Positions 6,722 through 21,154 of a stretch of 32,952 bases of DNA are shown here, piece by piece; positions within the stretch are counted from its first letter, which is position 1, and each line of letters opens with the position of its first letter. The DNA is taken from the IMG/VR virus record IMGVR_UViG_3300032117_000101, positions 1 to 32,952 of that record; one strand, given 5' to 3'. The notes under the pieces are model-generated. The model was not told where the DNA came from, made no database searches, and saw only the letters and a program-made list of their open reading frames with translations. The DNA is from a virus. The position numbers were made by a program, and so were the translations under genes.

Positions 6722-7717
6722 ATGGGCGTTGGTGCAGCGATAGGCGGAGTAGCAAGTTTAGGTTCGGCCTTAATTGGCGGAAACGCTGCTCAAAGCGCAG
6801 CTAATACAGAAGCAAATGCTGGAACTGCTGCTCAAAATCAGCTTTTGGGTATTGGTCAACAAGTATCTAGCCTTTACCAGCCGTATGAAAATTTAGGAAC
6901 AACCGCATTAAGCAGTTTGACTAATGCGTATCCTAGTTTGACTACTGCACAACAAACATATCAAAATCCAAGCAATTTACCAGGTACTTATACTGCCCCT
7001 AGTAATTTGCCCAACACTTATGGCGGTTTGTCATCACAATATAGTCCATATCAAACATTTACAAATGCTGATTTAAACAGTCAATTAGCTCCTAATTATG
7101 CCTTTCAATTAGGTCAAGGGCAATCAGCTACAAATGCAGCAAATAACGCTACAGGCGGTTTAGTAGGCGGTAATGCTCAACAAGCATTGCAAAACTATAC
7201 GCAAAACTATGCAAGTAATGCGTATCAAAATGCATTGTCGAATTACCAATCACAAGCATTACAAGGATTTAACCAATACACAGGCCAAAATACATTAAAT
7301 GCTGCCCAGCAAGCGCAACAATATAACCAAGGCGCACAGAATGTTGCATTGGGAGCGTCAACTCAGCAACAGCAATATAATCAGTTATTGGCAAATATTC
7401 AACAAGCTCAAGCTGGTCAATCACAAGGGTTTAATCAAGGTCTTGCTCAAAATACAAATATTTACAATATTCTTGCTGGTTTAACTGGTCAAGGTCAAAA
7501 TGCTGCAAGTAATGCTGCAAATGCACAGTTAGGCATTGGCACAAATATTTCAAACATTACTCAAGGTATTGCAAATGCTCAGGCTGCTGGAACTACAGGT
7601 GTAGCAAATGCATTGTCTAGTGGTGTTCAAGGTGCAACTAATAGTTATTTATTATCTAGCTTATTGCAAAATCAAAATCCAAATTCTTATAATGCCACTA
7701 ATGGCGTTATTCCTTAA
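6722..7717 (+). CDS. DNA ejection (internal virion) protein, gp7/gp14-like
   Basis: 331 residues, very rich in Ala, Gln, Asn and Gly. It begins with a Gly/Ala-rich hydrophobic stretch (G-V-G-A-A-I-G-G-V-A-S-L-G-S-A-L, residues 2-18), followed by long Q/N-rich helices, with Q-P-Y near residue 53. Composition, position before a second Q-rich protein and a lytic transglycosylase, and size match the three-protein ejection set of P22- and T7-type podoviruses, which enters the host envelope with DNA. A GGAG site precedes the ATG. Sequence motifs alone would not prove this; order is the main evidence. Confidence 0.7.
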   Translation: MGVGAAIGGVASLGSALIGGNAAQSAANTEANAGTAAQNQLLGIGQQVSSLYQPYENLGTTALSSLTNAYPSLTTAQQTYQNPSNLPGTYTAPSNLPNTYGGLSSQYSPYQTFTNADLNSQLAPNYAFQLGQGQSATNAANNATGGLVGGNAQQALQNYTQNYASNAYQNALSNYQSQALQGFNQYTGQNTLNAAQQAQQYNQGAQNVALGASTQQQQYNQLLANIQQAQAGQSQGFNQGLAQNTNIYNILAGLTGQGQNAASNAANAQLGIGTNISNITQGIANAQAAGTTGVANALSSGVQGATNSYLLSSLLQNQNPNSYNATNGVIP

Positions 7718-7726
7718 GGAAATATT

Positions 7727-8914
7727 ATGGCGGGATTAGATCCAAGCGTAATCGGAAATGTACAACAACCCCAACAAATGTCTTTGAGGGATATGGTTAA
7801 TTTGGCTCGTGGAACACAAGCATATCAACAAGCTCAACAAGTCAATCCTTTACAAGTTCAGCAACAACAATCTGCTACACAATCAGCGCAAACGGCTGCT
7901 CAAGCTGCACAACTTCAATTAGCTAATCAGCAAAATCAAATTGCTGGAGGAGCTATTACAGGTCTTGAAAATTCTCCAAGTTACAAAAAAAATGATGCAA
8001 AAGGAATTAAAAAAGAACTTGAAGCTACTGAAAAATGGTTAAAAACTGTTAATCCAGAACTTTTAAAAGAAGGCGGAGTTGTAGATCAAGCGCATAAATT
8101 AATTGATGCTGAAGATATAGATGGTTATAAAAATCATCTTGCAACATTAAGAAATGCTCTTGCAACCAATGAATCAAAATATTCTGCTGCATTGCCTTCT
8201 TTTGGCACTAATGCTCTTGGTCAGCAATTTATGGCTAATCGTGCTGCGGGCACAATTTCCGCCCCTCAACAACAAGGTCAAGGCAATATTACTCCTACTT
8301 CTGCTGGAGTTGAAAATTTCTCTGGTTATCAAAAAGATTTGCAAGCTAGAGTAAATGGCGCAACACAAAATGAAATGCGCTTAAATGAAGCAGAAGATTT
8401 AATGAAAAAAGTTAAAACTGGTGCTGGAACAAGAGCGTTTACTGATGTTGCTCAAAAATTACAAGCTATTGGCGCACCTCAATTATTAGTTGATAAAGCT
8501 GCTGGTGGCGACTTATCCGCAGTTCAATCATTGAATAAATTTATTGCTCAAACTGTCATACAGGCAGCTACTCAAAACCCTGGAACAGCAGAATCAATTA
8601 ATAGATATATTAGGGATAACCCCGATGTAACTACTGATCCAAGAGCTTTGGATAGATTCTTTGAATTTACCCATAAACAAAATTTAGTGCCTATTGAAGA
8701 ACAAAGATTTTTGCTTGATAAAGTTAAATCAGGTCAACTTAATCCAGACACTCATGTAGCAGAAGCTCAACAACATATTCTTGATAAATTTGCTCAAAAA
8801 CAAAATACTGTAACAAGCAAAGAAAGCCCTGCTGAAAAGAAAATTGTTAAAACTGGAACATTGAATGGCAAAAAAGTTGTTCAATATGAAGATGGCTCTA
8901 TTGGGTACAAATAA
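7727..8914 (+). CDS. DNA ejection protein, gp20-like
   Basis: 395 residues. The N-terminus (L-R-D-M-V-N-L-A-R-G-T-Q-A-Y-Q-Q-A) and a Gln/Ala-rich helical region (30-75) are followed by a more charged helical body and a short C-terminal K-V-V-Q-Y-E-D-G-S-I-G-Y. This pattern is typical of podoviral ejection proteins lying between a gp7-like protein and the injected transglycosylase. AAGGAAATATT-ATG supports the start, and the stop overlaps the next ATG (TAATG). Confidence 0.7.
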   Translation: MAGLDPSVIGNVQQPQQMSLRDMVNLARGTQAYQQAQQVNPLQVQQQQSATQSAQTAAQAAQLQLANQQNQIAGGAITGLENSPSYKKNDAKGIKKELEATEKWLKTVNPELLKEGGVVDQAHKLIDAEDIDGYKNHLATLRNALATNESKYSAALPSFGTNALGQQFMANRAAGTISAPQQQGQGNITPTSAGVENFSGYQKDLQARVNGATQNEMRLNEAEDLMKKVKTGAGTRAFTDVAQKLQAIGAPQLLVDKAAGGDLSAVQSLNKFIAQTVIQAATQNPGTAESINRYIRDNPDVTTDPRALDRFFEFTHKQNLVPIEEQRFLLDKVKSGQLNPDTHVAEAQQHILDKFAQKQNTVTSKESPAEKKIVKTGTLNGKKVVQYEDGSIGYK

Positions 8915-20116: not shown

Positions 20117-20217
20117 TTACTGGAATATTGCAATACCAAAAAGGATCAATAGCTAACGCAACAATATGGATTGGTTATGCCATTGGTCAAACTGGTTTAT
20201 GGATGAATTTAAAATAG
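20068..20217 (+). CDS. 49-residue membrane protein
   Basis: M-D-I-E-K-Y then two hydrophobic segments, about 7-21 and 28-46 (I-A-N-A-T-I-W-I-G-Y-A-I-G-Q-T-G-L-W), giving a probable two-helix hairpin. GGGG lies upstream of the ATG, and the gene overlaps the previous one by 49 bases. It ends 7 bases before the methyltransferase start. The function is unknown. Confidence 0.6.
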   Translation: MDIEKYIVGATGLGYLITGILQYQKGSIANATIWIGYAIGQTGLWMNLK

Positions 20218-20224
20218 GGGATAT

Positions 20225-21154
20225 ATGAATGAGTTGGCTCTTTTCGCAGGTGCTGGTGGAGGAATACTTGGGGGACATTTGCTTGGATGGCGAACAGTCT
20301 GCGCAGTCGAATGGGAAGCCTATCCAGCAAGCATATTGTGCGCAAGACAAAATGATGGACTTTTGCCGAGTTTTCCAATTTGGGATGATGTTCAAACCTT
20401 TGATGGAAAACCTTGGAGAGGAATTGTTGATGTTGTATCTGGAGGATTTCCATGCCAAGACATCAGCGCAGCAGGAAAAGGGGGGGGCATCGAAGCCGAA
20501 AGAAGCGGAATGTGGAAAGAAATGGCGAGAATCATTGGCGAAGTTAGACCAAAATTTGTATTTGTGGAAAACTCCCCAATGCTCACTTCTAGAGGACTCG
20601 GAGTTGTTCTTGCAGACTTGGCCAAGATGGGGTTCGATGCGGAATGGGGAGTGCTTTCAGCAGCCCAAATTGGAGCAAATCATAAAAGGGAAAGAATATG
20701 GATTGTCGGAAAAAGTTCCGAACAATCAGGACTTTTTTCATACTCCAAATTGCACAGGATTGGATGGGGGCAGCAACAGCAGAAAAGCATTGAAAAAAAG
20801 ACTAGAGCAATGGCCGACACCAGATGCAAATTGCGGTCAAAGGGGAACTCAACCAAATTGGACTCCAAAGAGAAAATCAGGTCATCCAGCGCAATACACA
20901 ATAAATCAAGCAGTCAGGGACAGTTTTGCAACTCCTACAGCAAGGATGTGGAAGGACAATGGAAAAAGTCCATCGGAGTTGAACAGAAACTCGGAAACTT
21001 TGGCAGTTCAAGCTGGTGGGAAACTGAACCCAATGTGGGTAGAGTGGCTAATGGGGTGGCCGCTGGGATGGACAGACTTAAAGCCATTGGAAACGGACAA
21101 GTCCCTTTATGTGCAGCGGTTGCATGGGAATTATTAAATGAACAAAGAATATGA
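20225..21154 (+). CDS. C5 cytosine DNA methyltransferase
   Basis: 309 residues. Motif I F-A-G-A-G-G (7-12) binds S-adenosylmethionine; motif IV P-C-Q (76-78) has catalytic Cys77; motif VI E-N-S (115-117); motif VIII R-E-R-I-W-I-V (155-161); motif X A-I-G-N-G-Q-V-P (287-294). Residues 163-260, where the target-recognition region should be, are low-complexity Ser/Lys/Gln-rich. W-W-E-T-E-P-N-V-G-R-V-A-N-G-V precedes motif X as in phage Dcm-like enzymes. It probably protects phage DNA from host restriction. An AGGGGA site is only 3-4 bases from the ATG. A second long frame overlaps it. Confidence 0.9.
   Translation: MNELALFAGAGGGILGGHLLGWRTVCAVEWEAYPASILCARQNDGLLPSFPIWDDVQTFDGKPWRGIVDVVSGGFPCQDISAAGKGGGIEAERSGMWKEMARIIGEVRPKFVFVENSPMLTSRGLGVVLADLAKMGFDAEWGVLSAAQIGANHKRERIWIVGKSSEQSGLFSYSKLHRIGWGQQQQKSIEKKTRAMADTRCKLRSKGNSTKLDSKEKIRSSSAIHNKSSSQGQFCNSYSKDVEGQWKKSIGVEQKLGNFGSSSWWETEPNVGRVANGVAAGMDRLKAIGNGQVPLCAAVAWELLNEQRI
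20229..21137 (+). CDS. Overprinted protein in the +1 frame of the methyltransferase
   Basis: 302 residues open from ATG 20229 to TAA 21137, about 98% of the methyltransferase length. The ATG is 7 bases from AGGGGA, better spaced than the methyltransferase start. The stop is followed directly by the next gene's ATG (TAAATG). The protein is Trp/Pro-rich and has features I associate with phage proteins: E-T-W-P-R-W-G-S-M-like (Q-T-W-P-R-W-G-S-M-R-N-G-E-C), W-P-T-P-D, and near the end L-N-P-M-W-V-E-W-L-M-G-W-P-L-G-W-T-D-L. Function unknown. It could instead be an open shadow frame, so both readings should be kept. Confidence 0.55.
   Translation: MSWLFSQVLVEEYLGDICLDGEQSAQSNGKPIQQAYCAQDKMMDFCRVFQFGMMFKPLMENLGEELLMLYLEDFHAKTSAQQEKGGASKPKEAECGKKWRESLAKLDQNLYLWKTPQCSLLEDSELFLQTWPRWGSMRNGECFQQPKLEQIIKGKEYGLSEKVPNNQDFFHTPNCTGLDGGSNSRKALKKRLEQWPTPDANCGQRGTQPNWTPKRKSGHPAQYTINQAVRDSFATPTARMWKDNGKSPSELNRNSETLAVQAGGKLNPMWVEWLMGWPLGWTDLKPLETDKSLYVQRLHGNY

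Follow-up and report, generated by a model that had tools for sequence, protein, structure and literature searches.

The viral DNA analysed here over its whole length, referred to as the window (32,952 nt; IMG/VR record IMGVR_UViG_3300032117_000101), is tailed-phage-like, with terminase, portal, tail and recombination genes. On its forward strand, two ORFs share the same stretch of DNA. P1 (20225-21154, + strand; ATG start, 309 aa) is assigned as a C5 cytosine methyltransferase subunit. P2 (20229-21137, + strand; ATG start, 302 aa), a proposed target-recognition subunit, is read in the +1 frame and nested within the span of P1. A previous reading of the sequence alone had described these two overlapping frames, and their positions were confirmed. 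The Shine-Dalgarno-like sequence AGGGGA (20216-20221, + strand) is common to both starts, and as claimed it serves two ATG codons 4 nt apart; the gap is 3 nt for P1 and 7 nt for P2, and the spacing is better for P2. A Shine-Dalgarno-like tetramer lies 6-9 nt upstream of the P2 ATG, the commonest spacing, in 122 of 152 loci. The gene ends are also as described: the last base of the P2 stop, at 21137, directly adjoins the ATG of the next ORF at 21138, and P1 ends 17 nt into that ORF.

Alignment of the window with two otherwise identical contigs (L001 and L002) drew attention to a G8 homopolymer (20480-20487, + strand) located inside both P1 and P2. The two contigs have G9 at this place, and both ORFs are shifted out of register in them, which could be either slipped-strand variation turning the enzyme off or an assembly error. 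This one-G difference between near-identical sequences is what could be invoked if the whole overlap were ascribed to faulty sequencing or assembly. We consider that explanation practically negligible; unrelated projects have recovered this architecture from viral contigs, isolated phages, plasmids and bacterial genomes, which refutes it.

Openness of the second frame and selection on both frames

Stops in the +1 frame were compared with a null model in which the synonymous codons of P1 are permuted while the protein and its codon usage are kept. In the window, no stop is present versus a mean of 8.1 predicted, and none of 20,000 permutations was stop-free. The second frame is thus open beyond chance, as the sequence-only reading had argued from a naive equal-base model, and this holds under a stricter null. 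The same analysis was applied to 94 distinct homologous loci from viral contigs and phage records, many of them found with P1 alone. These viral loci define the openness test; the set of genome contigs, in which P2 start codons were sought as ATG only, was retrieved with P2 and is not usable for this purpose. The second frame is not interrupted in relatives, with no stop at all in 92 of the 95 loci (window included). Altogether, 12 stops were observed versus 556 expected (5.9 per locus); these loci are related by descent and their counts are not independent events, and the shuffling test was applied within each gene. The +2 control frame is not depleted, with 1721 stops observed versus 1605 expected. 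Gene length ranges from ~245 to 350 codons across loci, with both frames open throughout.

The start of P2 is also conserved. It is an ATG in all 91 viral loci with usable starts, exactly 4 nt after the P1 start in 84 of them, while the P1 start codon can be ATG, GTG or TTG. Loci with a shifted P2 start do not have the N-E residues at positions 2-3 of P1; hence, this stretch of P1 seems to be dictated by the P2 ATG.

Reduced synonymous substitution, suggested earlier as a check, was assessed with the flanking genes at each locus as a control matched for amino-acid identity, and an excess of constraint was found. At 70-75% amino-acid identity, four-fold sites agree in 44% of cases in flanking genes, 55% in P1 motifs I-VIII and 84% over motif IX, and the ranking is the same in other identity bins. 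In the motif IX segment both readings are conserved, and P1 four-fold sites are 82-85% identical versus 40-56% in flanking genes. A comparison of +1 and null identities made without the flanking-gene control was superseded, since the +2 frame also exceeded the null.

Substitutions by codon position distinguish several parts of the locus. Over P1 residues 1-150, where P1 identity is 73-94% per 25-residue block, the third position of P1 codons changes fastest. Over P2 residues 176-275, it is the third position of P2 codons, and the last block is tight in both frames. The stronger constraint is on P1 over its motif I-VIII part (20225-20713, + strand) and on P2 over its target-recognition region (20703-21017, + strand), which contains repeated W/F-P-T-P modules. 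This regional switch of the constrained phase indicates that the two frames act as principal coding frame over different parts. Selection acts on both frames, and P2 adds conservation at the synonymous sites of P1.

A +1 ORF over motifs I-VIII also exists in a canonical single-chain enzyme (ORF14 of phage MM1), and one might therefore regard P2 as no product at all, its openness and similarity being side effects of codon choice and of an origin from a methyltransferase gene that had undergone a frameshift. The stop depletion, the fixed ATG, the synonymous-site constraint above that of flanking genes and the P2-phase selection over the recognition region make this very improbable.

Methyltransferase modules of P1 and P2

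P1 matches PF00145 (4e-34) and phrog_363 (3e-66) and harbours the catalytic motifs I-VIII of C5 methyltransferases, including the PC motif (GGFPCQ) and an ENV-type motif. Motifs I-VIII occupy residues ~1-163 and motif X residues ~283-300, with a disordered linker at ~175-260. Conserved positions are found in motifs I-VIII and in DRLKAIGNGQVP (motif X), and the S/K/Q-rich stretch between them is unconserved. Motif X (DRLKAIGNGQVP...; 21071-21124, + strand) is invariant or nearly so in alignments of 55 and 99 sequences. In contrast with the earlier statement that P1 holds all key motifs, alignments of homologues revealed no recognisable target-recognition domain (TRD) or canonical motif IX in it; these are in P2 instead. 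AlphaFold2 gave pLDDT values mostly >90 over residues ~1-160 of P1, remaining confident to residue 170, values <50 over most of 181-256 and C-terminal helices with a block pLDDT of ~81. A Foldseek search with this model retrieved M.HhaI and M.HaeIII (~170 columns, E ~1e-15). P1 is thus predicted to be a confident catalytic core with C-terminal helices and without a recognition domain. The stretch of P1 previously taken for a low-complexity TRD seems instead to be a disordered linker that results from reading the P2 recognition region out of phase.

P2 matches phrog_1008, a family annotated as DNA methyltransferase (2.4e-26). This match and the homologous viral loci bear out the earlier suggestion that the second-frame protein is conserved in other phages. 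Its conserved positions include the W-P-T-P modules and GGxLNPxWVEWLMGWPxGWTDLKPLxxDK, which corresponds in position and pattern to motif IX (x-L-T-P-x-x-x-x-x-L-x-G-F-P). In the window, this motif IX reads KLNPMWVEWLMGWPLGWTDL (21018-21080, + strand), and the same bases read EPNVGRVANGVAAGMDRL in P1. The EPxVGRVAxGV stretch of P1, as read from the sequence, is the out-of-phase reading of the P2 motif IX bases. The modules missing from P1 are present in P2.

The P2 profile does not significantly match the canonical motif IX of MM1 ORF13 on its own; hence, the assignment of motif IX in P2 runs through the protein of Mycobacterium phage DillTech15 (L161). In this protein, the P2 recognition and motif IX profiles and the P1 profile all match in one frame (module-profile E-values for this match and for the architecture survey below refer to small search spaces), and its C-terminal half matches phrog_1008 (3e-76). 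The P2-like segments of this single-chain enzyme are, judging by these profile matches, its recognition region and motif IX.

Other searches with P2 gave no match to PF00145 in Pfam and nothing significant in a PDB profile search, and profile comparison of P1 with P2 showed no similarity, as expected. The N-terminal half of P2 (~160 residues) has no recognised function by Pfam, PHROGs or PDB profile matches. AlphaFold2 modelled P2 alone with a mean pLDDT of 55, residues 185-290 being better predicted (up to 83) than the N-terminal half, and Foldseek found no match for the model. As the model is of low confidence and unmatched, we claim no fold for P2. Its poor prediction in isolation would fit a domain that needs a partner, but is no proof thereof.

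In P2 (residues ~160-260) and its relatives, the recognition region is made of one to four P-T-P modules. The length of P2-family proteins grows with the number of modules (r = 0.64), which recalls multispecific phage methyltransferases.

The sequence-only reading had proposed an overprinted protein that constrains the low-complexity region of P1. Such a protein is indeed there, looks translated and constrains this region; however, it is not unrelated to the methyltransferase, as it carries the TRD region and motif IX. The conservation of P2, the lack of any match of known function for its N-terminal half and the fact that P1 could in principle act alone might still suggest a separate role, for instance in anti-restriction or host takeover. 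This is unlikely, given that the C-terminal half of P2 has its homologues in the recognition region and motif IX of single-chain methyltransferases, exactly the parts of which P1 is devoid. A hidden HNH endonuclease of the ShiLan type was rejected as a candidate: P2 spans the whole gene, has methyltransferase modules and gives no HNH match in Pfam or PHROGs.

A probable two-chain cytosine methyltransferase

We consider it highly probable that P1 and P2 together form one phage cytosine-5 DNA methyltransferase, made of two separately initiated polypeptides encoded by the same 0.9 kb. Motifs I-VIII, which make up the domain for SAM binding and catalysis, and the motif X helix would come from P1 in frame 0. 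P2 would be initiated separately in the +1 frame, at its own ATG 4 nt downstream with the better ribosome-binding spacing, and would contribute motif IX together with the target-recognition region. These chains would then associate to form the active enzyme, both being required, and this enzyme presumably shields phage DNA from host restriction. We infer the translation of P1 and P2, their association, their joint requirement, the activity of the enzyme and its protective role.

Programmed frameshifting would be another way to combine the modules: ribosomes that start in P1 would shift by +1 once past motif VIII and continue through the recognition region, yielding one fused enzyme. The +1 frame does hold the recognition region and motif IX further downstream, and one such shift would be enough to rebuild a canonical I-X enzyme in split relatives. 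Nevertheless, frameshifting needs neither an ATG for P2 nor a fully open N-terminal half, and both are kept; moreover, in the family of the window the fusion would have no motif X unless a second shift took place. No conserved slippery sequence after motif VIII was found over P1 codons 149-182 in the 91 loci. We thus regard frameshifting as quite unlikely.

The proposed two-chain enzyme of the window probably represents a widespread and largely mis-annotated type of heterodimeric cytosine methyltransferases of phages and prophages, with catalysis in one frame, modular DNA recognition in the other, twin starts and one ribosome-binding site. Target specificity would be free to diversify in the +1 frame, as a disordered linker is tolerated in the overlapping part of the other frame. 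Annotators call one frame, the other or both. We predict that many annotated phage and bacterial 'DNA cytosine methyltransferase' genes are inactive as annotated because the recognition half is in the uncalled frame.

Known systems and the series of architectures

Naturally split C5 enzymes are already known, as are overlapping methyltransferase ORFs and the 'internal gene' of phage Shelly. As far as the literature searched shows, what is new is the full-length twin-start form, a second frame that houses the recognition region, the phase switch of selection and the series of architectures. Long same-strand overlaps with both frames demonstrably selected are uncommon, and here the frames hold complementary enzyme parts.

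The smaller subunit of M.EcoHK31I (~176 aa) is reportedly encoded within the gene of the larger one in a different frame, both subunits being required in vitro. The window resembles the described module layout of M.EcoHK31I in that P1 has motifs I-VIII and X and P2 has motif IX. It differs in the size of P2, which at 302 aa spans almost the full length, in the P2 start, 4 nt behind that of P1, and in the Shine-Dalgarno sequence common to both. In M.EcoHK31I, which recognizes YGGCCR, the larger subunit comprises motifs I-VIII and X and the smaller polypeptide motif IX (PMC3404938). Its predicted TRD was placed in the larger subunit (PMC3404938), whereas we assign that of the window to P2, which speaks against the two-chain reading. 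M.AquI also has its recognition function and its catalytic core on separate polypeptides; its smaller subunit also holds motif X, and its variable region is divided between the subunits (PMC3404938). In the window, in contrast, motif X is in P1.

Methyltransferase ORFs that overlap were noted earlier in Streptococcus thermophilus phages of the 5093 group, S. pneumoniae phage MM1 and Tn5252 (PMC5601072). Like the window, these have two methyltransferase-annotated ORFs on the same DNA in different frames. In MM1 (L259), however, ORF13 (7480-8637) is a complete single-chain C5 enzyme with TRD, IX and X in frame, and the annotated +1 ORF14 (7631-8056; phrog_16143) covers only the motif I-VIII region. 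MM1 and Tn5252 were therefore rejected as direct homologues; the MM1 enzyme represents a related overlap with a different module split. The +1 ORF of MM1 matches the profile of the P2 N-terminal half. The examined stretch of phage 5093 contains no annotated methyltransferase.

Paenibacillus phage Shelly (gp55/gp56, 'g55 internal gene') has a +1 ORF in a C5 methyltransferase gene that carries the recognition region and motif IX, but its P2 starts internally, 184 nt after the P1 start, and has 234 aa. ShiLan also gives a phage methylase gene a second, out-of-frame protein, but as a mobile insertion coding for an HNH nuclease (PMC11855218), whereas P2 of the window spans the whole gene with methyltransferase modules.

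Among further viral loci, ~32 have all modules in one frame, and in ~92 P1 continues beyond motif IX, which is in the +1 frame. In a smaller viral group, P1 stops before motif IX, which is mostly in the +1 frame, as is motif X where placeable. Clear split pairs (L232, L242, L292-L300 and L408) have a P1 that ends after motif VIII and a P2 with TRD-IX-X in the +1 frame, with lengths of 170 and 389 aa in L232 (Spirochaetia bin) and 168 and 491 aa in L242 (Paraburkholderia). L232, L242, L294 and L408 show a module split like that of M.AquI, with X in the second chain, but in overlapping frames. The split pair L408 also has the twin ATGAATG start. The likely order of events would be a single chain, then a split pair by a frameshift after motif VIII, and then motif X read in the P1 frame. 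This series from single-chain to split to fully overlapped genes makes an evolutionary route to gene overlap testable.

Several bacterial phyla also have the overlapped arrangement, in genomes and on plasmids, and it turns out to be ancient and widespread. In four bacterial genomes (L188, L200, L231 and L255), P1 has one in-frame stop within motifs I-VIII, with P2 intact in the first three of them despite this stop; these look like decaying prophage copies. In L201 and L239, P1 has a stop just past motif VIII, motif X is still readable in the P1 frame and P2 is intact. In these cases, the P1 linker may be dispensable or the copies may be inactive.
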